A DNA stretch of 30,750 nucleotides from a virus. The DNA is taken from positions 1 through 30,750 of the IMG/VR virus record IMGVR_UViG_3300042470_000360; one strand, given 5' to 3'. This document shows, in pieces, positions 12,046 to 23,505 of the stretch. A model generated the notes under the pieces. The model was not told the DNA's origin. It ran no database searches and saw only the letters and a list, made by a program, of their open reading frames with translations. Each line of letters opens with the position of its first letter. The first letter of the stretch is position 1. Made by a program: the position numbers and the translations under genes.

Positions 12046-12245
12046 ATCCCAAACAATTTCTTGACAAACATGGCCGCGACACCTGGTCCAAGCAAGACCG
12101 CGGCAATCGTGATGTACAACAAGATCTCAATATGCCGCATGCGTGTGCTGCCATCTTTTAGTCGCTTTTCAATTTGTTCGTAACGCTGCGCACAAACTGC
12201 CTCGTGGACTGAAAACTTGGTTTCGATGTTTTGTTCCATGGTCAT
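12042..12245 (-). CDS. Small membrane protein with N-terminal coiled coil (XhlA-like layout)
   Basis: A 67-residue protein with a charged helical N-terminus (about 1-38, QRYEQIEKRLKDGSTRMRHI) and one C-terminal membrane segment (about 39-60, LLYITIAAVLLGPGVAAMFV). This is the layout of hemolysin XhlA-like phage lysis helpers, which act with a holin. The similarity is one of architecture and not proven homology. It overlaps the oxygenase gene before it and the membrane-protein gene after it by 4 bases each. Confidence 0.68.
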   Translation of the reverse strand: MTMEQNIETKFSVHEAVCAQRYEQIEKRLKDGSTRMRHIEILLYITIAAVLLGPGVAAMFVKKLFGI

Positions 12246-12868
12246 AAAGCATTCAAGAAAATTAACTGTGTCAGCCGACTGTTAGTCACATCGGTACCGA
12301 AGTGATCTCCCATCGAATGCCACATCCAGGGCCGAAACAAAACCAAGCGATTGGTCCGAATCGGGGCGTCAAAAACAGGCTCCCATAAGTTTTTGTTCTT
12401 GCCTTCAGTCTCAAAGAACTTGACCATGTCATCGTGCGTCGTAACACCGATGGCTTGTGCTTCGATATGGTCCCGTGGCGCTACTTCCATGCCTGACTTG
12501 CGGTGGCGATACATGGATGTGCCAGCCTGCTTGCCAGCATAATGCTCGGGCAGGCTTAGGTAAATAACCCCAGCCCAAACCTGCTGAGGCTTGGGATCAA
12601 AGTGAATGACTTGGGTTGAAGTGTCATGCTCGCAGGTAAAGCGAAAGTGGCCACAGCTTGAGGTAGGCGTTGGGAACACAATATCGCCTGTAATCGCTGA
12701 GAGCATGTTGTTAAGGTCCAATGACCAAAACGCCTGCGTGCTGTTGCACCCAGGGTAATTACGCTCTCCTGGCGCTTCATACTCAGCCTGCAGCGCAATC
12801 TGACGAATGTCTGCAAAGTTGGGGAAGAAGTCATCCACCACGATGATGCGCTTATCAAAGTTCACCAC
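12242..12868 (-). CDS. 2-oxoglutarate/Fe(II) oxygenase-like protein (DUF6445-like)
   Basis: A 208-residue protein with the iron-binding pattern of 2-oxoglutarate oxygenases: His89-x-Asp91 (IHFDPKPQ), a distal His184 in LFRPWMWHSMG, and Arg198 (SRLTQLIFLN) as the likely 2-oxoglutarate anchor. The flanking strands (WAGVIYLSLPEHY and RLVLFRP) fit the double-stranded beta-helix core. I associate the overall pattern with DUF6445. Such enzymes hydroxylate proteins, sugars or small molecules. It follows the GT32 gene with a 7-base overlap and ends the modification cassette, so a surface polymer or fibre is the most likely substrate. The assignment of the distal His (184 rather than 189) is a judgement. 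Confidence 0.7.
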   Translation of the reverse strand: MVNFDKRIIVVDDFFPNFADIRQIALQAEYEAPGERNYPGCNSTQAFWSLDLNNMLSAITGDIVFPTPTSSCGHFRFTCEHDTSTQVIHFDPKPQQVWAGVIYLSLPEHYAGKQAGTSMYRHRKSGMEVAPRDHIEAQAIGVTTHDDMVKFFETEGKNKNLWEPVFDAPIRTNRLVLFRPWMWHSMGDHFGTDVTNSRLTQLIFLNAL

Positions 12869-13563
12869 TCACCTGTCCAGTGACGCAAACCGTTTTGAGC
12901 GTAAAAGTCTCGCTTCATTTGCTCCCAGTTGCCTGCAAAGCCCTCGTGAATGACGGTCCGATGTGGTGGCACTTCCATGATGCATTTCAGACCTTGCACT
13001 TGGTTCACAGCACCGCGCATTTGCTGCATCACTTCTTCGCCTGGATTGGTATCGATGATGCCGCCAAAAAGCGTCTCTGTGATGGCGTGCATGTAAGTCT
13101 GCGCGCCCAGGAAGTAAATGCTGTCAGCGCCAAGCTTGCGACGGCCAAGCCAGTGCCTGATAGCAGATCGGTAGATCGGATTATGCGGCGCACTCAACAT
13201 GAAGTCATGCGAGAAGTCATGGTTGCGGCAAGTCGGCAAAACTTGCCGAGTGTCATCGTCAATTAGTTTTGACAGGGGCATGTTGCAAAGCCTGTCAATA
13301 TCAATGTAAAGGCCACCCTCTAAGAACATTTTGTAAAGACGCCAGATATCGGTCTTGGCCACAATGTGCAAGGGCTGAGCAAGCTCATAGTCCTCAGCCA
13401 TTTTCTCTTGCAGGTAGGCCTCGATGTCAGCATCGTCAGAGATCTGCAAGTCCCAATCAGGGTTGAGTTCAACAAGCTTTTTAAGGCCATGCTTGATGAG
13501 AGGCGCGTCACTCTTGAGCACCTCCTTGTCATTCCAGGCTATGTGAATGATTTTAGGGATCAT
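12862..13563 (-). CDS. Glycosyltransferase family 32-like (sugar-binding DXD type)
   Basis: A 233-residue protein starting with MIPKIIHIAW, the N-terminal signature of the GT32 / Gly_transf_sug group (OCH1-like and capsular transferases). The conserved block AKTDIWRLYKMFLEGGLYID (about 69-88) leads into the DXD metal and sugar-nucleotide motif Asp88-Ile-Asp90. The C-terminal part carries a His/Asn-rich acceptor region. No membrane segment is seen, so it should be cytoplasmic. Start and stop overlap its neighbours by 4 and 7 bases. Sugar donor and acceptor are unknown. Confidence 0.82.
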   Translation of the reverse strand: MIPKIIHIAWNDKEVLKSDAPLIKHGLKKLVELNPDWDLQISDDADIEAYLQEKMAEDYELAQPLHIVAKTDIWRLYKMFLEGGLYIDIDRLCNMPLSKLIDDDTRQVLPTCRNHDFSHDFMLSAPHNPIYRSAIRHWLGRRKLGADSIYFLGAQTYMHAITETLFGGIIDTNPGEEVMQQMRGAVNQVQGLKCIMEVPPHRTVIHEGFAGNWEQMKRDFYAQNGLRHWTGEW

Positions 13564-14402
13564 TTGAGACCCATTTTCTCGCGGATCTTGGTGGCTGAGA
13601 TGGAGTGCGTCGCATCGTCAAACACTTCCTGCTCAATCTTGTAGCCCACATCACGGCCATAGGTGATGTTTACAACATTGGGCACTAGCTGAATCTCATA
13701 TTGGCCCTGATACAGAGGATCAAGATCGCGCCTAATGAAGTCCTTGACCTGCTCGGCAGCAAAGGGATTGGACCCGTTCCAGCCCTGGCAATCGCGGATT
13801 TGAATGACTACCTGACCTGTCTTGGCAATCGCACGCTCAAAGAGTTTGCGATGGCCAGGATGCCAAGGTTGCCAGCGTCCAAGCATTTGAACGGTCTCTT
13901 TCTTCCAGTCAAAGCGTGGTCTGCGACGGTCATTTAAGATGTGGTCAGCGATGAAGTCAGACCACTTATCAGCGTCTTTCTCGGTAATACGAAAGTCATA
14001 GAGATCAGGTGATACGAAAGCTTTGTTTGTATCTTCATAGCGGCCCTGATCGATGGTGTCCATCCAGATCACCCAGTCAGCCTTGAAGTTGTGACGCATC
14101 TCAGGCAGCGGTGCCACAAAGTCACAGATCACATAGTCAGCATTGGCAGTCATGGCAAACTCAGCCATGCGTAAGGACTGGCGAATGCGCCCTTCATGGC
14201 TAAAGTCCCAGTCGTTATACTTCTTGCGGACCTCATCAGCATTGAACCATTTCACGCTGGGTCGATAAAAGGTGGGCACCACCTCACACTGCGCCAATGT
14301 TTCGACGGGGATCTCAGTGCTGGCCTCCAGACGCTTCTTCAAAGCCTCAGCCATAAAGGTCTTGCCTGCTCCTGGCAGGCCCATGATCAAGATTTTTTTC
14401 AT
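13560..14402 (-). CDS. APS-kinase-like P-loop kinase fused to HxGH nucleotidyltransferase
   Basis: A 280-residue two-domain protein. Domain 1 (about 1-160) has a Walker A motif GLPGAGKT (8-15) and the block FNADEVRKKYNDWDFSHEGR (53-72), which parallels the DGDNVRxGLxxDLGFSxxDR block of adenylylsulfate kinases. Domain 2 (about 170-280) is a cytidylyltransferase-like fold with GRWQPWHPGH (175-184) and ISATKIR (268-274). Similar kinase-nucleotidyltransferase fusions are known from marine phages, often named adenylylsulfate kinase. If domain 1 makes PAPS it would supply the sulfotransferase encoded at 15521-17296. The second domain resembles NMN or sugar-phosphate adenylyl/cytidylyltransferases more than ATP sulfurylase, so a NAD or sugar-nucleotide role is an alternative. 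Confidence 0.8.
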   Translation of the reverse strand: MKKILIMGLPGAGKTFMAEALKKRLEASTEIPVETLAQCEVVPTFYRPSVKWFNADEVRKKYNDWDFSHEGRIRQSLRMAEFAMTANADYVICDFVAPLPEMRHNFKADWVIWMDTIDQGRYEDTNKAFVSPDLYDFRITEKDADKWSDFIADHILNDRRRPRFDWKKETVQMLGRWQPWHPGHRKLFERAIAKTGQVVIQIRDCQGWNGSNPFAAEQVKDFIRRDLDPLYQGQYEIQLVPNVVNITYGRDVGYKIEQEVFDDATHSISATKIREKMGLK

Positions 14403-15094
14403 GCGGCTAACTTATCGTTGCGGTCAGTTGTTCGGCCATGCTTGGGGCGTCCAAGGATGGTTGTCTCAGTCTTATCAGGTGCGTCTGTAGCGTACACGCC
14501 CATTTGATGAATCGGGAAAATATCAGCACGAATCAGAATATCTAAAGGCACAGCAATACCGTACTTAATCACATGCGAGAGCAGGTTTTTAGCTACCGCA
14601 GGGTCAATTGCGTAGGCATGAGCACGGCAAATGAAATGATAATTAGGGCCTTCAGACGCGTGTGGTGGCGTAGGCATCACAGCCCATCCCTTTTGCGTTT
14701 GCTCATGGCACCCAAGATAGCAAATTGAGTTGTAAACCGCATGCTGGCGATAAGGCTGAACCATTACCGCATCATGCTCAAGAATGACAAGGGGTTTGTC
14801 ATCTTCAATGCATTTGGCCCACAGGCTTATATGTGAGAGCGCACAGGCCACTTCACCGCGTGTGAGGTAGTGGTCAGTCACCTTGATCAAGTTCATCACC
14901 TGACTGTGGTGAGCAGGTGGCTGGATGGGGTCTTCTAAGCCGTTATAGGCATCCCAAAACTGATAGGGCATACCAATCGAGGCGCAGGACTTAGCAGCTT
15001 CGTTAGCCTTGCGCTCAGATACCTCATGCCCTGGGATGCGGATAATGTAAGCCCGCTCCACAGCCATGTCATAGCTGTAGAAGAGCGACTTCAT
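14399..15094 (-). CDS. Glycosyltransferase family 25-like
   Basis: A 231-residue protein matching the GT25 layout (LPS galactosyltransferases of LgtB/LpsA type; collagen galactosyltransferases in animals). It has an N-terminal strand with AYIIRIPGHEVSERKA, then the hallmark GEVACALSHISLWAKCIEDD (80-99) followed by PLVILEHDAVM (101-111). The usual EDD metal motif reads Glu106-His-Asp108 here. The C-terminus has the Ala-His-Ala-Tyr region seen in the family. There is no membrane segment. It is coupled by ATGA overlaps to the chaperone-like gene before and the kinase fusion after. Confidence 0.8.
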   Translation of the reverse strand: MKSLFYSYDMAVERAYIIRIPGHEVSERKANEAAKSCASIGMPYQFWDAYNGLEDPIQPPAHHSQVMNLIKVTDHYLTRGEVACALSHISLWAKCIEDDKPLVILEHDAVMVQPYRQHAVYNSICYLGCHEQTQKGWAVMPTPPHASEGPNYHFICRAHAYAIDPAVAKNLLSHVIKYGIAVPLDILIRADIFPIHQMGVYATDAPDKTETTILGRPKHGRTTDRNDKLAA

Positions 15095-15546
15095 GTGGGC
15101 TTAACAGGCCAATCTAAACCGTTGAAATCAACGATGGTAGGCAAATCACGCAAGGCTTGACGGTAGGTTGCCCATGCCTCGGGAATAGCCTGACCTGCTT
15201 CCAGGTACTTGATAATGACCCAATCAGTTTCGGCAAGCCTGAAGTTGCGCTCAATGCGCCACAAGCGCCAACGCTCTGCTGCCTCGGCATCAAGCTCTTC
15301 TTGCGTCTTGGATCGCTTAACGAGCGTCCAGACTACATGATCGTCCTTGATCTCGTAGCTTTCAGAATCCCACACCTCAGTGCGCGTATCCATCGAATCA
15401 GGCTTCACTGAAACAACGGGATACCAACCCGAGCGAATCAGCGCATCTTTATCAGCACCCCAGGCTGAGACATCAGGTGGCAGTAAATTAGCACCACGCA
15501 CTACCTTCCCGTCTTCAACCTTAACCCATAGATCTAATCCTGCCAT
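15091..15546 (-). CDS. Tail/fibre assembly chaperone-like protein (Phage_tail_APC type)
   Basis: About 151 residues from the ATG at 15546, which has GGGG six bases upstream; an ATG at 15558 lacks such a site. The C-terminal half (about 90-148) contains WRIERNFRLAETDWVI and AWATYRQALRDLPTI ending in LDWPVKP. This is the conserved block of phage tail assembly chaperone-like proteins (PF16778 group), often encoded just after fibre genes. The N-terminal half is a small strand-rich domain of unknown role. Here it is two genes after the RCC1 fibre and inside the modification cassette, so a fibre-folding chaperone is the likeliest job. The start overlaps the upstream gene by 26 bases. Confidence 0.78.
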   Translation of the reverse strand: MAGLDLWVKVEDGKVVRGANLLPPDVSAWGADKDALIRSGWYPVVSVKPDSMDTRTEVWDSESYEIKDDHVVWTLVKRSKTQEELDAEAAERWRLWRIERNFRLAETDWVIIKYLEAGQAIPEAWATYRQALRDLPTIVDFNGLDWPVKPT

Positions 15547-17296
15547 GATGTACCCCATTCAAGTAATCGCTAAGTTCACTGCGAATCATTTCAAAAACAT
15601 CATCCCAAGTATCGTATTTGCTCTGCCTGAACAATCGAACAGCATCGTACCAAGGAACGCTACTTCCAGGTAAGGCCCACAAGTAATAAGGCAGGATTGG
15701 GATAGCAACCCAAGTCGGTATGCCCATCGCAGCCGATAGGTGAGCCACTGAGGTACATGATGAGATGACTAAGTCACAGCCTGCCACCGCAAGTTGCGTA
15801 TCTTGCCATGAGTCAAGCTTGGACTCAGCAATCCATTCAGGTCGATGCTGTGCGCCTTCATCACGCTGCAAGGACACAAACTCAACATCAAAGCCTTTAA
15901 CAGCGTTAAAGAGCAACTCAGGTGGGAAATACTTGCGATGATCGTGCTCGAAGTTGGGATTACCCTGCCAACGCAAACCGATACGGAATTTGTCCTTTGT
16001 GACTTGTGGGCAGGGGATATAAGCGCGACCCCACACATCCTTGTACTCAATACCTAAAGGTATTGGCGCTGACATTCCAGGCACCCAAGCATGGTGATAA
16101 ACGCCTGGGGCCGCTTCGTGAACGGCTACCGCACGCACATTGGGAACCGTTGCAAAGAGCGTTACAAGCTCGGGCGAGCAAGCCACAATCACTTGGCAGT
16201 TGCGAGCCGTAATGTCTTGCACAAAGCGCATCTGGTGAATTTGATCGCCTAAGCCACCTTCTAAGTAAAGCAAGACGGTTTGATGAGGTTGACCCTGCCA
16301 AAGCTCTGTGGGCACTTGAGGCTTGCGATTGCCGAAGACCTGCTCAATCCTACCCCTGGCAAGTAACTGCATACCTTCTTGCAGCTTGCCTTGCATCAGC
16401 ACATACAAGCCTCGGTTATAGGCTGCACGGTGGTTTTCAGGCTCAACGCGCTCAAGGTGCTGGGCAATCTCCCAAGCTTTTTGGAAGTCACCGCGACGGC
16501 CTGCTTCCAATTGCAAATCGAGGGGCTGTTTGGGTCTTGACTCTTCCGTTTCACCAAGCCAAAAGCGTGGTTGGTTAAACTCGTGATAACGGTGCCCCAA
16601 GACCTCTTGGGCTGTTTGCTTGTGCTGACGCTCAAGCTTAGGCTTGATGTCGTGCAAACCAGGGATGCCCCAAACCTCATCATCTTTCTCAGCTACTACT
16701 GAACCTTCAATGCGCTCAAAGTCATAGGTAAAAGGCTCAAGCTCCAAGAACTGATGAATGCGATCAAGCTGTGTTTTGGGGTCAGCAAGCAGGTCTTCGT
16801 ACTCAATCAAGCAAAAGGACAGGGGATCTTCCAACATGCCTGCGTGCAGCGTCACATAGCCTGTTTTGACCACATCAATGAGGTGTGTCTCGGCCAAAAA
16901 CTTTTGCACATTGTCTGGTTTAACAACACGCACAAAGGATGCAATGCAGTCAGGCACGCTGCGAACCGTTGCAATGATCTTGGGCTTTTGACCTAAGACT
17001 TTCGTCATGGTCTTCATGATCGGTGGCGCAGGCCAGCCACGGTTTTTGTCGATGATGACAGGCTTGGTAATGGTCTCGTTTTTGGCTTGCATCAACCCGC
17101 GCAACATGCGAATCATGTCATCGTCATTGCGACCTTGGACATGAATGGACTCATCACGCTCCCACTTCTCAGCCACAGCGCCCATGATGCTAATTAGCCC
17201 TGATGTTGGTGTGACATGCACCAGGGGGTTTTGATTCAGGATCGCGGCAAGAACCGTGGATCCAGAGCGTGGTAAGCCAGATAAGAAGTGCATCAT
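15521..17296 (-). CDS. Sulfotransferase-TPR-glycosyltransferase fusion
   Basis: A 591-residue three-part protein. Residues about 1-240 form a PAPS-dependent sulfotransferase domain with the 5'-phosphosulfate loop SGLPRSGSTVLA (6-17) and the 3'-phosphate site around Arg112 and Ser120 (ATVRSVPDCIASFVRV). Residues about 260-325 look like two TPR-type helical repeats (EAGRRGDFQKAWEIAQHLER then NRGLYVLMQGKLQEGMQLL). Residues about 335-580 resemble a GT-B transferase of the GT9/GT41 type, with LEGGLGDQIHQMRFVQ and the late nucleotide-sugar motif ISSCTSVAHLSAAMGIPTWV. The fusion suggests that sugar transfer and sulfation act on one acceptor. The start is MM at 17296/17293, overlapping the RCC1 gene stop. 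Confidence 0.82.
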   Translation of the reverse strand: MMHFLSGLPRSGSTVLAAILNQNPLVHVTPTSGLISIMGAVAEKWERDESIHVQGRNDDDMIRMLRGLMQAKNETITKPVIIDKNRGWPAPPIMKTMTKVLGQKPKIIATVRSVPDCIASFVRVVKPDNVQKFLAETHLIDVVKTGYVTLHAGMLEDPLSFCLIEYEDLLADPKTQLDRIHQFLELEPFTYDFERIEGSVVAEKDDEVWGIPGLHDIKPKLERQHKQTAQEVLGHRYHEFNQPRFWLGETEESRPKQPLDLQLEAGRRGDFQKAWEIAQHLERVEPENHRAAYNRGLYVLMQGKLQEGMQLLARGRIEQVFGNRKPQVPTELWQGQPHQTVLLYLEGGLGDQIHQMRFVQDITARNCQVIVACSPELVTLFATVPNVRAVAVHEAAPGVYHHAWVPGMSAPIPLGIEYKDVWGRAYIPCPQVTKDKFRIGLRWQGNPNFEHDHRKYFPPELLFNAVKGFDVEFVSLQRDEGAQHRPEWIAESKLDSWQDTQLAVAGCDLVISSCTSVAHLSAAMGIPTWVAIPILPYYLWALPGSSVPWYDAVRLFRQSKYDTWDDVFEMIRSELSDYLNGVHHGRIRSMG

Positions 17297-19035
17297 GCAG
17301 GACTGATTGATGTTTGAGTAATACCAAATGTAGCATTACCGGAACCGGCTGATATAAACCCCCAATTTGTTAATGCCCCAACCTGAACTGGCGATGATCT
17401 AGGTGTTGTGTTGCCTTGCCCAAGTTGACCATCGCTATTTCTACCCCATGACCATAGCGTGCCGTCCGTCTTTATTACAGAAGAAGTTCCGAATCCTGCC
17501 GACGCTTTATCCCAGGTTGTTAATGCACCAACTTGTACAGGAGAGGATCTTGGATATGTGTGGTTAAGCCCTAAATTTCCATATTGGTTACGACCCCAGG
17601 CATACAATTCTCCGGTTGTAAGAATTCCGAGCATGTGACAGTTAGAATAATTACCGGAAGCAACATTTATGCTTTTCCAAGTCGTTAATGCACCAAGCTG
17701 TACAGGTGAAGACATGCTAGTTGTAGAATTAATACCCAATTCCCCCCAAAGATTATGGCCCCAAACCCAAGCCGTGCCATCAGTTTTTATAGCTGCTGCT
17801 CGATAAACGCCCATGTTTATTTTTGACCATGTAGTTAATGCACCTATTTGAGTCGGAGATGATCTGGCAAAACTGCCAAAAGGATTATCATTTTGGCCTA
17901 AAACACCTTGGTAGTTCAGCCCCCAAGACCACATGGTCCCATTAGTTTTACGAGCCAGAAATGCTTGACCACCGCCAGAAATTTCTGCCCAATCGGTCAG
18001 TGTTCCGACTTGAACTGGCGATGATAAAGTTAATAAACTATTATGCCCCAAGGAACCATTGGTATTATTACCCCAAGTAAATAATTGTCCTGATACTGTC
18101 AGTGCTGCGCAAGAGGAATTATTTGTTGTCGCGCTAGCCCAAGTAGTAAGCGATCCAATTTGTACAGGGGAGGATCGGGAAATAATATTATTTTGACCTA
18201 GTTGACCTTGAGCATTATAACCCCAAGACCACATTGTTCCATCTGTTTTTATAGCCACAGCTTGGGCTTGGCCTGATACACTTGCCCAATTCAATAATGC
18301 CCCAACTTGTGTAGGAGAAGATATGGAGGCCGCACTATTTTGACCAAGTTTGCCAGCAACTCCATTTCCCCAAGAATAAAGTTGACCTTGCGTTCCCCCC
18401 GGAATCGTAGCTTCCACCCAGCCACGCCATTTCGTACCACCATCCGTTGTAAGCAATGCAATAACAGTAATGCCGTTTGCGCCGGTAGCTAAGGTCGGTG
18501 CCGTTTGTACGGTGCTGATCGTCGCAGCAGCATACTGCCCGCTCCAATACACTGAATTAGGCCAAACAATCGTATAGGCCGTACCGTCCGAGGCATTCTT
18601 CACTACGATCTGAATCAAAATCGGCGTGCCACTTGCAGGCACATTGGTAAACGAAAGTGTCGTGATGTTTGCTGCCATCGTTAAGTCGATGACATTGCCA
18701 CTGTTTAGGTTGATCGTGGTTGTAGCTGATGATGTAACGGCTTGACGGGTATTGTTGGTCAGGGCACCTGCTGCTACCGAGCCAAAGCTTAAAACACCTG
18801 CGCCATTGGTTGTCAAAAATTGCCCACTCGTGCCATCAGCCGTAGGGTACTTAAGCTCGGCAGGATTGTTGAAAAAGCGCTTGACGACACCCGATGCATT
18901 CTCGAAATACATCGTCATGTCGGTATCAGCAATGTTCAGCGCCAATTCGCCAGGACTAAGATTGGCAGCAAGGGGTAGGTTGCCCGAAGTCGTGCTGCGA
19001 TAAAGCTGGATGGGCGTGTAATTGGTTGCAGGCAT
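17293..19035 (-). CDS. Tail-fibre-type protein with seven RCC1 repeats (beta-propeller)
   Basis: A 580-residue protein preceded by a strong GGAGGT site six bases from the ATG. The N-terminal segment (about 1-85; LSPGELALNIADTDMTMYFENA) is the attachment region common in phage fibres, followed by a beta-rich linker domain to about 210. From about 218 to the end there are seven consecutive RCC1-like repeats, each with WGxNxxGxLGxN and SSPxQ[VIL]G. Seven is the number needed for a closed propeller. The repeat region looks clearly AT-richer than its neighbours: sample 60-base lines I counted by hand gave about 38-48% G+C. The domain therefore probably arrived by transfer. RCC1 propellers bind proteins or sugars, so a receptor-binding head is the likely role. 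Confidence 0.85.
   Translation of the reverse strand: MPATNYTPIQLYRSTTSGNLPLAANLSPGELALNIADTDMTMYFENASGVVKRFFNNPAELKYPTADGTSGQFLTTNGAGVLSFGSVAAGALTNNTRQAVTSSATTTINLNSGNVIDLTMAANITTLSFTNVPASGTPILIQIVVKNASDGTAYTIVWPNSVYWSGQYAAATISTVQTAPTLATGANGITVIALLTTDGGTKWRGWVEATIPGGTQGQLYSWGNGVAGKLGQNSAASISSPTQVGALLNWASVSGQAQAVAIKTDGTMWSWGYNAQGQLGQNNIISRSSPVQIGSLTTWASATTNNSSCAALTVSGQLFTWGNNTNGSLGHNSLLTLSSPVQVGTLTDWAEISGGGQAFLARKTNGTMWSWGLNYQGVLGQNDNPFGSFARSSPTQIGALTTWSKINMGVYRAAAIKTDGTAWVWGHNLWGELGINSTTSMSSPVQLGALTTWKSINVASGNYSNCHMLGILTTGELYAWGRNQYGNLGLNHTYPRSSPVQVGALTTWDKASAGFGTSSVIKTDGTLWSWGRNSDGQLGQGNTTPRSSPVQVGALTNWGFISAGSGNATFGITQTSISPA
17310..18390 (-). repeat. Seven tandem RCC1-type coding repeats
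   Basis: Seven units of about 48-55 codons each, marked by Trp-Gly...Leu-Gly and Ser-Ser-Pro-x-Gln motifs. DNA identity between units is partial, highest around the codons for SSPVQVGALTTW, where several units share nearly the same bases. That pattern suggests duplication followed by drift and leaves room for recombination between units. Confidence 0.8.
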
Positions 19036-19069: not shown

Positions 19070-19528
19070 TTAGGCTGCGCGTTCAAGGTACAAAAGGCTT
19101 TTCACAGCCCTTAAAACGATCTCTGGCGCGACAAACTTGCTGGGGTCATGCTCATAGCAGTCCCACCACAAAAACTGGTTGGGCACGAGATTAGCGCGGT
19201 CCTTGAGCAGGTTGATGTTCTCAGGGTGGCCAAAGATGTTGGGGTCCGATACTGACCACAGCACAATCCCAGGCTTGCCCAAATCCCACCCAAAGTGCTG
19301 CAAGAAGCTATCGCATGAAATCCAGGTATCGCACTCGCGGATGAGGTTGCACAAAGCATTGAGCGGCAGGTTCTTGCGAAAGTCATCAACCAACCGCGGC
19401 TCACCCTCCACTCCCACCTGTACCACAGGCTTGGGCAGCATCGGGATAAGCTCCTCCCAAAACGGGTAATCCTTGGGATTCTTCTTCCCGTTGGATAGCT
19501 TTTTGGCAAAGGGTGCGATCACAATCAT
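19070..19528 (-). CDS. C-terminal half of a GT9-like glycosyltransferase, encoded separately
   Basis: A 152-residue protein that resembles only the C-terminal Rossmann domain of GT9 (heptosyltransferase-type) enzymes: MIVIAPFAKKLSNGKKNPKD, a strand pattern VVQVGVEGE, and the late block WISCDSFLQHFGWDLGKPG followed by VLWSVSDPNIFG. Full GT9 proteins are about 300-350 residues with an N-terminal Rossmann domain. The matching N-terminal half appears as the tail of the gene just upstream (19525-20493), whose stop overlaps this ATG (ATGA). The two products may assemble into one GT-B enzyme. Alternatively this is a stand-alone fragment with binding but no catalytic role. Confidence 0.78.
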   Translation of the reverse strand: MIVIAPFAKKLSNGKKNPKDYPFWEELIPMLPKPVVQVGVEGEPRLVDDFRKNLPLNALCNLIRECDTWISCDSFLQHFGWDLGKPGIVLWSVSDPNIFGHPENINLLKDRANLVPNQFLWWDCYEHDPSKFVAPEIVLRAVKSLLYLERAA

Positions 19529-20493
19529 AAGTACAACTTTCGGTAAGCTGACTCAAGGCTTGACTTCCACTTCCAACGGTCCATTTTCGCATAAATGTTA
19601 TACATTTCGATGTCGCCAAATAAGTCTTTGGCCTCAGCGATGGACCTGCACGGGATGATCTCAGGATAGCAGCCAAACACCACAGGGTTCTTAATGGATG
19701 GCAGCACATGCTTGAAGACCACATGATCGCCCATGCCGTTGTTAAGCACCACAATCGTTGCATCTCTGAATGCCATCGTGTTGCGGAAGATCTGCTCGTC
19801 ATGCGCAAACAACTGATCGTTGTTATCCATGCGGATACCACCTGATGGCGCTTTCAGGTGCCAGGTCACTGCATTGGGTACAACCAGCAGTTTGTAGCCT
19901 TTAAGCTTCAAACCCCAACTGAATAGCGTCTCTTCGCGGTGTGCCACGCGGGACAGGCCTAGGTTGTAGTCATAAATCCCAGCACGGTACAAGAAGGTGC
20001 AGTGAAGATGATCCACCTCTCTGACCTTGTGAATGGTCTGCCACTGTGGATTTGGCTCATGATCAATGTAGTCAATCTTGCCTGTAGGCTTGGCCGTCTC
20101 AAAGTCATGGCCTGGCATAAAGACTGAGCCACCAATGCCTGCCACATCAGGCGCAATGTGCTTAGCTAATTGCTCGAGTACGCCAGGCTCAGGAAGGGCA
20201 TCATCATCCACGCGCCACACCCAGTCATAGCCCATGCAATTGGCCATTTGATGATTGTGATGCTGGCCCTTTTTGCCTGCCCAGAGCCATTCCCAAGCAA
20301 TGCCTTTGCGCTCAAGCATGAAGAAATACTTGCTGTACATCGGGTCCTGGCGCAGGTCTAAATGCTCGTCGTTATCATCAAAGATCACAAGCTTGTCAGG
20401 CTTGCGTGTCTGATTCATCACGGCCTGCAAGGCCATCGGCAAGAAGGTATGCGTGCGGCCTCGTGTCGAGATTGAGCACAGAATGCTAGGCAT
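19525..20493 (-). CDS. GT2-like glycosyltransferase with C-terminal GT9 N-half
   Basis: A 322-residue protein. Residues about 1-235 form a GT-A family 2-like transferase: SILCSISTRGRTHTFLPMAL at the start, Asp96-98 (WRVDDDALPEPGV) as metal motif, and an HREETLFSW acceptor region. Residues about 244-322 switch to a GT9-like N-terminal start (ATIVVLNNGMGDHVVFKHVL), including the Gly-x-Gly-Asp loop, and end before any GT9 C-terminal domain. That missing part is encoded by the next gene. The gene overlaps the GT2-methyltransferase gene by 8 bases. Donor and acceptor sugars are unknown. Confidence 0.8.
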   Translation of the reverse strand: MPSILCSISTRGRTHTFLPMALQAVMNQTRKPDKLVIFDDNDEHLDLRQDPMYSKYFFMLERKGIAWEWLWAGKKGQHHNHQMANCMGYDWVWRVDDDALPEPGVLEQLAKHIAPDVAGIGGSVFMPGHDFETAKPTGKIDYIDHEPNPQWQTIHKVREVDHLHCTFLYRAGIYDYNLGLSRVAHREETLFSWGLKLKGYKLLVVPNAVTWHLKAPSGGIRMDNNDQLFAHDEQIFRNTMAFRDATIVVLNNGMGDHVVFKHVLPSIKNPVVFGCYPEIIPCRSIAEAKDLFGDIEMYNIYAKMDRWKWKSSLESAYRKLYL

Positions 20494-21766
20494 GCCAGCG
20501 CCCGATCAGCAGGTTTAACCGATTCTTATCGTCAATGGCTTTAGGCGCTGTTGAGATGGCGCCTTCCTCATCGATGTACTCAAAATGAAAGCCAGGAAAG
20601 TGCGATTCATTCAGGCCATGCAACTTGTGATGCGGACCCCAAAAACCTGGTGGCTCATTCATCGGCACCGTAAACAGCAGGGTCTTGCAATGCTGCTTTA
20701 GCTTTTGCAGGATTTCAAGGCCATTGTCTAAGTGCTCGATAACCTCAAAAGCAATGATCGTGTCGTACTGATCAAAAGGGTAAGTATTGATGTCAGCATG
20801 ATGGAACTGGCAGTGAGGTGTCCATTGCTGCTCGTTGGCCACATCCACAATGATTGGATCGTAATCAAGGCCAATGTAAGGCTTGTCAGGCATGAACTGA
20901 GAGCCGTAACCACTCGAGCAACCAATCTCTAAAATGTTGCGGCCTGCATGGCTTGCAGCCCATTGATACCGAGTTGACTCTCTCGGGAAAACTGGATCGC
21001 CTTTCAAGAAGACTGCGCGCTCCCAGTAATTCGATAAACGCCAGCGATACCACTCACGGTTATACATCTTGGCAAGCTTGAGTGAGTTGCGCAAAAAGAT
21101 GTCGTGATAGTTATCAACCAGCTTGGGATCGAGCATCGTGCCCTCACCCTTGTGATAAATCGGAAAGACGCCTGTGTACTGTGAGCCATCCCACTGCTTT
21201 GGCGAGCATTCAGTCACCTCGTAGCCTGCCTCTTCAGCGCGAATGCAAAACTCGGTATCCTCGCCACCGCCCACGCCAAAGTCCATGCTGAGCAAGCCAA
21301 TCTGGCTGAATACGCGCCTGCGAATCATCACGCAAAAGAAGACTACAAAGTCACGGCCTGCAGGCTCTGACGGTCCTTTGATAACCCCTGATATGCCACA
21401 CTGAGGATTGACGAAGGGATGGTCCAGCATGTGCAGCCACTGGCTCTTTTCCTGGGGCAGCAGGACCGTGTCATTGTTAAGCAGGACAATCTTGTCAGTG
21501 CGCGTAGCTACGATGCCAGCATTGCAAGCGCCTGAATAACCCAAGGGCTTGTCATTCCAAACAACTTTGATGTGCTTCTCAAAGCCGATGCTGGTAAAGC
21601 GCTGCGTTAGCTCTTTCAGGTAGACATCGGTATTGTCCGTACAACCATTGGCCGAAATGACCAATTCCACATCGGCCATGTCGGTGTACTTGAAGACAGA
21701 CTCTAAGCAGGGCTTTAGTAGGTCATCACAATGGTTGTAGGTCGGTATGACAATTGAATACTTCAT
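20486..21766 (-). CDS. GT2 glycosyltransferase-SAM methyltransferase fusion
   Basis: A 426-residue protein. The N-terminal domain (about 1-235) is a family 2 transferase: MKYSIVIPTYNHCDDLLKPC, the nucleotide-sugar motif LLNNDTVLLP (95-104), and GGGEDTEFCIRA (167-178) with the catalytic-base-type ED. The C-terminal domain (about 275-400) is a class I methyltransferase with NILEIGCSSGYG (277-288), an acidic strand end IGLDYDP (298-304) and VIEHLDNGLEIL (342-353). It could add a sugar and methylate it, or cap a chain by methylation. It directly follows the collagen-like fibre gene with a 1-base overlap, which suggests co-expression with that fibre. Confidence 0.85.
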   Translation of the reverse strand: MKYSIVIPTYNHCDDLLKPCLESVFKYTDMADVELVISANGCTDNTDVYLKELTQRFTSIGFEKHIKVVWNDKPLGYSGACNAGIVATRTDKIVLLNNDTVLLPQEKSQWLHMLDHPFVNPQCGISGVIKGPSEPAGRDFVVFFCVMIRRRVFSQIGLLSMDFGVGGGEDTEFCIRAEEAGYEVTECSPKQWDGSQYTGVFPIYHKGEGTMLDPKLVDNYHDIFLRNSLKLAKMYNREWYRWRLSNYWERAVFLKGDPVFPRESTRYQWAASHAGRNILEIGCSSGYGSQFMPDKPYIGLDYDPIIVDVANEQQWTPHCQFHHADINTYPFDQYDTIIAFEVIEHLDNGLEILQKLKQHCKTLLFTVPMNEPPGFWGPHHKLHGLNESHFPGFHFEYIDEEGAISTAPKAIDDKNRLNLLIGRWHA

Positions 21767-23505
21767 TAGAAAGTTCCACCGTCAACCCCACCTGTGATTG
21801 CGTTAGTGCTGCCATTCACTGACAAGCCTGCATCCACAAGCACGGCTTGACTGCCCGTTGTTGAATTGGTGGCAAACAAGATAAAGCCTGCCGTTGCGCT
21901 TGCTGTAGTGGTCACATTGGTTGGTGGCGCGCCAGAGAATCCACTGACACCACTGAATCCTGAAACGCCCGAGCCGCTGAATCCAGAAATGCCCGAGAAG
22001 CCACTGAACCCTGATATGCCTGAAAACCCTGAAATGCCTGAGAAGCCACTGAACCCTGAAATCCCACTAAAGCCAGAGCGACCAGAAAACCCTGAAATCC
22101 CACTGAATCCTGATATGCCGCTAAATCCTGATATGCCCGAGAAGCCAGAGGTGCCACTAAAGCCACTGATGCCTGAGCCAGAAAAGCCTGATATGCCAGA
22201 GCCTGAGAATCCTGAAATGCCACTAAACCCTGAGAATCCACTGATGCCACTAAAGCCTGAGATACCAGAAAAACCTGAGATACCTGAGAACCCAGAGATG
22301 CCGCTAAAGCCACTAAAACCAGAGCGCCCAGAAAATCCTGATGTGCCGCTTTGGGCTACGCCATCAAGACCTGAATAGCCACTGAATCCTGAATAGCCAC
22401 TAATGCCTGAAAACCCACTAATCCCTGAAAAGCCTGAGATCCCACTAAAGCCTGAAATACCTGAAAAGCCAGAGAACCCCGAGGTGCCTGAAAAGCCAGA
22501 AATACCCGAGCCTGAGTAACCCGAGATGCCCGATCCCGAATAGCCAGAAATCCCACTGAAGCCCGATATGCCTGAAAAACCGCTGATCCCTGAGAATCCT
22601 GAGATGCCACTAAAACCTGAAGTGCCCGAGTAACCCGATACGCCAGAGCCTGAAAAGCCTGAAGTGCCGCTGTAACCCGAAATGCCACTGAACCCCGAGA
22701 TACCACTAAAGCCAGAAATGCCGCTATAGCCCGACAGGCCCAAGCCTGAGAAGCCGCTAAACCCTGAGTAGCCTGAGATACCTGAAGCACCCAGTGCATT
22801 GGTCCAAGTGCCACCAATGGCACCTTCAAACTGCGATAACTGCGTGTTAAAGCGAATCATCCCGTCTTGTGCGACAGGCCTTTGCGCAGTATTGCCCTTG
22901 GGCAGCGTCATCGATGCGGTGCCAGGCACTACTGGGTTATCAGCCAATCCCACCGTGGGATTAGCGCCATCACCTGTGCCGTTGGTTACATCAATCTCAT
23001 CAGCCGTGCCCGTAAGCGTGACAACGCCGATGCTGTTGCCACTGGTGCGCGATAAAAGGCCAACGCCTGAAGACTGCGCCAGGTTGAGAACCAAGCCTGA
23101 AAGCGACACCGTTGGGTTGCCAGCAACGCCATCGCCATCGGCAACGCTAATACCTGCCGTTCCAGCCGCGATAGAGCGCGCTGTGAGCGTTGTTGCGTTG
23201 GTCTTGACCTGAATACCTGTCCCTGCTGTTACGAGGCTTGCAGGCGCTCCAGAGAGGCTTAGAACGAGGGTTGAGCCAGCGCCGTTATCTGTGAGCGTTA
23301 AGCCACCACCTGAAGTGCTTAATTGGCGTGATTGCGAGAGTGAGCCTTCACTCGTTGCTGTGACAAAGCTGTAATTGGTTACAGGGACCGCGGCAATATC
23401 TGCCACCGTCGTTTTGACGGTGCCACCATCCTGAACGATGGGCACAAGCTCGGTACCCGTGAGGGCATCGGCGGTCGGTAACTGGGTGATGGTTTGATTG
23501 GCCAT
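21766..23505 (-). CDS. Collagen-like tail fibre (Gly-X-Ser repeats)
   Basis: A 579-residue protein. Residues 1-40 (MANQTITQLPTADALTGTEL...) form an attachment motif also found in the protein at 25835-26419. Residues about 45-240 are beta-rich fibre sequence. Residues about 241-525 are a collagen-like rod of about 95 triplets in which Gly is first and Ser (rarely Thr) takes a fixed place, with Phe, Ile, Tyr, Thr, Val or Arg as the variable residue; Pro and Lys are almost absent. Several Gly-Ser insertions break the register. The C-terminus (about 526-579) ends TGGVDGGTF, matching the end of the fibre at 8010-9500. It is probably a trimeric fibre. The dense, regular serines are candidate O-glycosylation sites. 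Confidence 0.85.
   Translation of the reverse strand: MANQTITQLPTADALTGTELVPIVQDGGTVKTTVADIAAVPVTNYSFVTATSEGSLSQSRQLSTSGGGLTLTDNGAGSTLVLSLSGAPASLVTAGTGIQVKTNATTLTARSIAAGTAGISVADGDGVAGNPTVSLSGLVLNLAQSSGVGLLSRTSGNSIGVVTLTGTADEIDVTNGTGDGANPTVGLADNPVVPGTASMTLPKGNTAQRPVAQDGMIRFNTQLSQFEGAIGGTWTNALGASGISGYSGFSGFSGLGLSGYSGISGFSGISGFSGISGYSGTSGFSGSGVSGYSGTSGFSGISGFSGISGFSGISGFSGISGYSGSGISGYSGSGISGFSGTSGFSGFSGISGFSGISGFSGISGFSGISGYSGFSGYSGLDGVAQSGTSGFSGRSGFSGFSGISGFSGISGFSGISGFSGISGFSGFSGISGFSGSGISGFSGSGISGFSGTSGFSGISGFSGISGFSGISGFSGRSGFSGISGFSGFSGISGFSGISGFSGFSGISGFSGSGVSGFSGVSGFSGAPPTNVTTTASATAGFILFATNSTTGSQAVLVDAGLSVNGSTNAITGGVDGGTF
21931..22785 (-). repeat. Collagen-like tandem coding repeat
   Basis: About 285 codons of Gly-X-Ser triplets. 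At the DNA level the region is a degenerate 9- and 18-base periodic repeat with frequent synonymous codon changes, so exact repeats are short. The mirrored plus-strand frame gives a long Pro/Glu-rich shadow frame with no independent support. Length changes by slippage or recombination are likely. Confidence 0.88.

Follow-up and report, generated by a model that had tools for sequence, protein, structure and literature searches.

Many freshwater phages appear to make a two-domain enzyme of the heptosyltransferase type permanently as two proteins, one half being fused to a GT2 glycosyltransferase. The window analysed here is a stretch of 30,750 bases (IMG/VR virus record IMGVR_UViG_3300042470_000360, positions 1 to 30,750). 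Judging from the sequences, two overlapping genes in it probably encode a single GT9-like (GT-B) glycosyltransferase in two chains that would pair into one active site, and we put the probability of this reading at about 60 %. The window's major capsid protein shares 88.5 % identity with its counterpart in the uncultured phage genome MW202545 and 75 % with the one in Caulobacter phage RW. The gene pair sits within the tail-fibre region. Between the tail adaptor and the endolysin, MW202545 has a fibre and an endo-N-acetylneuraminidase, and the window has a collagen-like SGFSG-repeat protein, several transferases and an RCC1-type fibre. The features of the pair are as follows.

19525..20493, minus strand: GT2 plus GT9-like N-terminal piece, 322 aa (PF00535, E 1e-5; model pLDDT 88.9, pTM 0.87; GT-A folds, Z up to 18.5).
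19762..20493, minus strand: GT2 (GT-A) domain of the 322-aa protein, residues ~1-244 (Pfam; structure search).
19528..19761, minus strand: d1, the putative GT9-like N-terminal piece, ~79 aa, residues ~245-322 of the 322-aa protein (profile matches; model pLDDT ~88-95 here).
19726..19737, minus strand: GxGD motif, G253-D256, in d1 (placed on G12-D13 of E. coli WaaC by profile alignment).
19525..19528, minus strand: ATGA, in which the stop of the first gene overlaps the start of the second (ORF coordinates).
19070..19528, minus strand: d2, the 152-aa protein, a predicted complete GT9 C-terminal (donor-binding) domain on its own chain (Pfam, fold, profile).
19295..19312, minus strand: D73...Q77-H78 motif in d2 (WaaC equivalents: D261 for D73, H266 for H78).

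The preliminary description of this DNA had proposed a GT9-type enzyme spread over two genes, with one half fused to a GT2 enzyme. This was confirmed by the coordinates of the two reading frames, by their ATGA overlap and by Pfam, which finds GT2 alone (PF00535) in the 322-aa protein and GT9 alone (PF01075) in the 152-aa protein. Membership of the first 244 residues in GT2 is indicated by a GT-A fold, a DxD motif and the PF00535 match, all of which are present, and the DDD motif at residues 96-98 of this domain is invariant in 31 relatives.

The 152-aa protein is, on the evidence of sequence and predicted fold, the entire C-terminal, donor-binding domain of a GT9 enzyme, with its D...H motif. 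Its Pfam match (E 1.1e-4) falls exactly at the 22-bit cut-off and spans just the end of the profile (172-218 of 247). PF01075 is matched by 27 of the 30 relatives in its alignment, with a best E of 2.6e-8, and profile comparison of d2 with 23 bacterial GT9 proteins gave E 2e-11. The d2 model, made with an alignment of 35 sequences, has a mean pLDDT of 93.7, and every Foldseek match below E 0.001 was a GT9 structure. The best VIA-align match was WaaF (1psw; Z 16.1, rmsd 2.0, 133 residues), followed by TibC, WaaC and a Veillonella GT9 at Z 13-15; GT1-type enzymes and UDP-GlcNAc epimerases ranked below the GT9 structures, at Z 9-11. Because residues 1-151 of the model cover residues 182-348 of the WaaF chain, from the first strand of the domain, the 152-aa protein can be read as a complete GT9 C-terminal domain, and the earlier claim that the second gene encodes only the second GT9 domain holds.

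Assignment of d1 was less direct. In the model of chain 1 it is folded, with two clear strands, four helices and a pLDDT mostly of 88-95. At ~79 aa, it falls short of a full Rossmann domain; the N-terminal counterpart in single-chain relatives is ~110-130 aa. A structure search with the whole chain 1 model was dominated by the GT2 domain and was uninformative for d1. When the d1 profile was compared directly with those of bacterial GT9 proteins, no match emerged, and the match to the HTVC111P proteins alone was weak (E 0.004).

The two ends of the enzyme are connected by unsplit relatives. Two GT9-like phage proteins of ~300 aa turned up in a scan of long phage records, and one of them led to a single-chain family, of which 79 loci were found. 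In two phage records the single-chain form coexists with the split pair. For profile comparisons this family (the L498 family) was aligned together with the HTVC111P proteins, and the joint alignment matches bacterial GT9 proteins across both domains (E 2.4e-12, 224 columns). The N-terminus of the single-chain family is matched by d1 (Prob 91.6 %, E 8.3e-7) and its C-terminal domain by d2 (E 3.5e-12), so that the pieces represent opposite ends of a single enzyme. With d1 built from 224 sequences, the E-value is 2.8e-7 and the score 46.7, compared with a shuffled maximum of 24.4, and none of 300 column shuffles reached the observed score. The match spans the first ~48 residues of d1; no counterpart was demonstrated for the remainder of d1, nor for the linker of ~30 aa in the single-chain proteins. 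The single-chain proteins (~290-300 aa; the L498 family, Pelagibacter phage HTVC111P gp53 and the related PHROG 8954) resemble the pair in their N-terminal GxG region and C-terminal domain. They differ from it in being one chain, joined by the linker, and in the Lys that follows GxG in the L498/HTVC111P alignment, where d1 has Asp. This single-chain family, with Lys replacing the GT9 Asp after GxG, is represented at L496 389-1291, in a record that has the split pair as well.

From its profile matches and model, d1 is best described as a shortened GT9-like N-terminal domain, with a catalytic-type GxGD motif, that forms the tail of a GT2 enzyme. The preliminary description had taken residues 244-322 to be the first Rossmann domain of GT9. 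The GxGD motif and the match to the single-chain N-terminus are consistent with this, but the domain is shortened and its relationship to bacterial GT9 is recognizable only via phage intermediates.

Only four residues, G12, D13, D261 and H266 in WaaC numbering, are invariant in the bacterial GT9 alignment, and their counterparts are divided between the two proteins: chain 1 contributes G255-D256, and chain 2 contributes D73 and H78. In WaaC, D13 has been proposed to act as the catalytic base, and the Asp and His of the C-terminal domain lie at the donor. D256, H257, D73, Q77 and H78 were found in all 224 paired loci and G255 in 223 of them, though these counts are somewhat biased, as the retrieval patterns contain parts of the conserved motifs. 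Both d1 and d2 are under purifying selection (median dN/dS 0.11 for GT2, 0.10 for d1 and 0.12 for d2, with a d2 maximum of 0.23).

The two-gene state is real, natural and long-established in these phages. The GT2-d1/d2 pattern recurs in several hundred viral stretches and is thus not due to chance. The classification of loci drew on six viral scans, to which the four contigs of the genome scan and the region from P19250A were added. The search for phages with fused reading frames that had been proposed earlier revealed no fused d1-d2 form among ~250 distinct loci with both halves; the natural split, which had been expected to be unusual, is fixed in all of these. A four-base overlap is present in 225 (205 ATGA, 16 GTGA and 4 TTGA), and nine have other close arrangements of d1 and d2. 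A further 17 were scored as gene-separated, but one of these (L461) is a second d1 copy, leaving 16 with an intervening gene. In the loci inspected, the halves are separated by a methyltransferase (e.g. PF08241 in L216, 2501-3001), another GT2 (L435 2318-3001), both of these (L452 1836-3001) or a small ORF (L430).

The 24 long phage records (34-200 kb) each have a single d1 and a single d2, and the two halves invariably share a gene cluster. Where the upstream side is present, d1 is invariably fused to GT2, and no d2 without d1 was found among loci with more than ~350 nt of upstream sequence. Homologues of the 152-aa protein occurring widely alone, which the preliminary description had named as evidence against its proposal, were thus not seen. 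The bacterial genome scan produced only four matches, all in metagenome-assembled contigs. Two bacterial-bin contigs that were translated contain the same GT2-d1/d2 pair followed by phage-like genes, and are read as phage DNA in bins. We note that in L118 (3260-4225) the GT2 part contains a TAG in frame, and the first gene there may therefore be broken or misassembled.

In nearly all loci the two frames are one base apart at the junction, which could suggest a single fused product made by programmed frameshifting or readthrough, or a split that is an artefact of assembly or mutation, but this is very improbable. No slippery site is kept at the gene junctions, the last sense codon of the first gene varies (TTA, CTA, ACA, GCA or GTA), and the first codon of the second gene varies across loci only among ATG, GTG and TTG. 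The junction is in another frame in L118 and L208 and lacks an overlap in L212, and ATGA overlaps are common in the operon, accounting for 6 of the 15 junctions examined. For the family, a fused product is refuted by the whole genes that lie between the halves in 16 loci. Together, the absence of fused forms, the intervening genes, the start-codon variation, the lack of a slippery site and the single copy of each half rule out that the split is explained in general by a recent stop/start, by an assembly error or by frameshifting. The earlier suggestion of a simple stop/start in this phage is not supported, as the split is fixed across the family and genes can intervene. We give as little credence to the idea that d2 is a decaying, functionless GT9 remnant. 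It holds only one of the two GT-B domains, but the dN/dS values given above, its intact state in hundreds of loci, the invariant D and H and the confident fold all argue against decay.

A more serious alternative, though still an unlikely one, is that d1 now serves the GT2 enzyme only as an accessory subdomain at its C-terminus and that the 152-aa protein acts by itself, in homo-oligomeric form or partnered by the GT2 domain, no GT9-like site being rebuilt. In line with this, d1 is predicted to fold well alongside the GT2 domain (pTM 0.87) and is far smaller than a GT9 N-domain. The evolutionary distances of d2 also agree no less closely with those of the GT2 domain than with those of d1; in a mirror-tree comparison, r was 0.45 for d1 and d2 and 0.42-0.51 for equal-length GT2 windows and d2, indicating no special coupling. 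Moreover, in some relatives a d1 close to that of the window stands beside a divergent d2 (84 % and 58 % identity to the window, respectively, in L075), as recombination between the halves would give. The ~79-aa length of d1, the missing direct match to bacterial GT9 and the lack of any extra d1-d2 distance correlation likewise count against pairing, and the co-occurrence of d1 and d2 could be explained by operon linkage. However, an accessory role for d1 does not sit easily with the finding that d2 never lacks d1 where sufficient upstream sequence is present, with the retention by d1 of the GT9-type GxGD Asp in 224 of 224 loci, or with the alignment of d1 and d2 to opposite ends of one single-chain enzyme.

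Under the preferred reading of one GT9-like enzyme in two chains, chain 1 would be a GT2 enzyme that ends in a shortened GT9 N-terminal domain with GxGD, and chain 2 the whole GT9 C-terminal nucleotide-sugar-binding domain. The four-base overlap may couple translation, so that both chains are produced together, and the GT-B cleft would arise from their pairing. The GT2 and GT9-like sites may work successively on one glycan, for which the likeliest substrate would be the phage's own fibre, e.g. the neighbouring Gly-x-Ser collagen-like protein. A fuller version of this scheme can be offered only tentatively. In it, a GT-A enzyme carrying half of a GT-B enzyme would recruit the other half in trans, and the resulting two-chain complex would add two successive sugars to the Gly-x-Ser fibre, while exchange of the donor half by recombination would change the sugar.

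The collagen-like protein, which has long SGFSGISG repeats, is encoded directly upstream of the transferase genes (21766-23505, minus strand). Gly-x-Ser repeats were found in 66 of 140 non-redundant family loci compared with 0 of 80 pelagiphage GT9 loci and 0 of 29 bacterial GT9 loci, but as the control loci are shorter, and the bacterial ones non-viral, this association is a lead rather than proof. It points to the fibre of the phage itself as the substrate. Near the collagen-like gene there are also a DUF6445/2OG-oxygenase-like protein and a GT25 protein (12242-12868 and 14399-15094, minus strand), a combination that is reminiscent of collagen hydroxylation and glycosylation. Other neighbours on the minus strand include a 280-aa protein with kinase-like (APS kinase/KTI12) and cytidylyltransferase-like parts (13560-14402), and an RCC1-type propeller following a tail-fibre-like N-terminus (17293-19035). 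A 591-aa protein (15521-17296, minus strand) has sulfotransferase and TPR parts and a C-terminal part that looks GT9-like by eye, with a weak profile match (E 0.001).

Split GT-B enzymes are already known, namely the MurG-like Alg14/Alg13 of eukaryotes and EpsE/EpsF of bacteria and archaea (PMC4973528, PMC8993221), and GT-B domains produced separately can self-assemble into an active enzyme (PMC10937113). Like the phage pair, Alg14/Alg13 and EpsE/EpsF have separate genes for an N-terminal acceptor half and a C-terminal donor half (PMC4973528, PMC8993221). However, they belong to GT1/GT28 (MurG-like), their N half is membrane-anchored and re-fused forms exist, whereas the phage pair is GT9-like and phage-borne, has a much smaller N half located behind a GT2 domain, and no re-fused form of it was found. 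A split of the GT9 type is new as far as we could find, no description of a split GT9 enzyme or of the GT2-d1/d2 pair having been found in the open-access literature. The E. coli GT9 heptosyltransferases WaaC and WaaF share with the pair the C-terminal fold and sequence and the invariant G-D and D...H, but are single chains, about 320-348 aa long, in which the N-domain accounts for ~180 aa; heptose or LPS specificity is not implied for the phage pair. The two domains in one chain that are a feature of Pfam GT9 are likewise absent from the pair (0 fused of ~250). Among isolated phages, Methylophilaceae phage P19250A (GenBank accession number KX815270) has the same two genes, P19250A_0025 and P19250A_0026, with the same ATGA overlap and 61-62 % identity, and both are annotated as hypothetical proteins.

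If the halves pair, these genes would show that natural splitting of GT-B enzymes extends beyond the MurG/Alg13-14 lineage, in a form that is common in freshwater phages and has a second transferase tethered to it. The pair would also be a small natural system for the assembly and exchange of GT-B donor and acceptor domains, for which engineered chimeras have been used (PMC10937113), and a function would be provided for two gene families that are annotated as hypothetical in an isolated phage.
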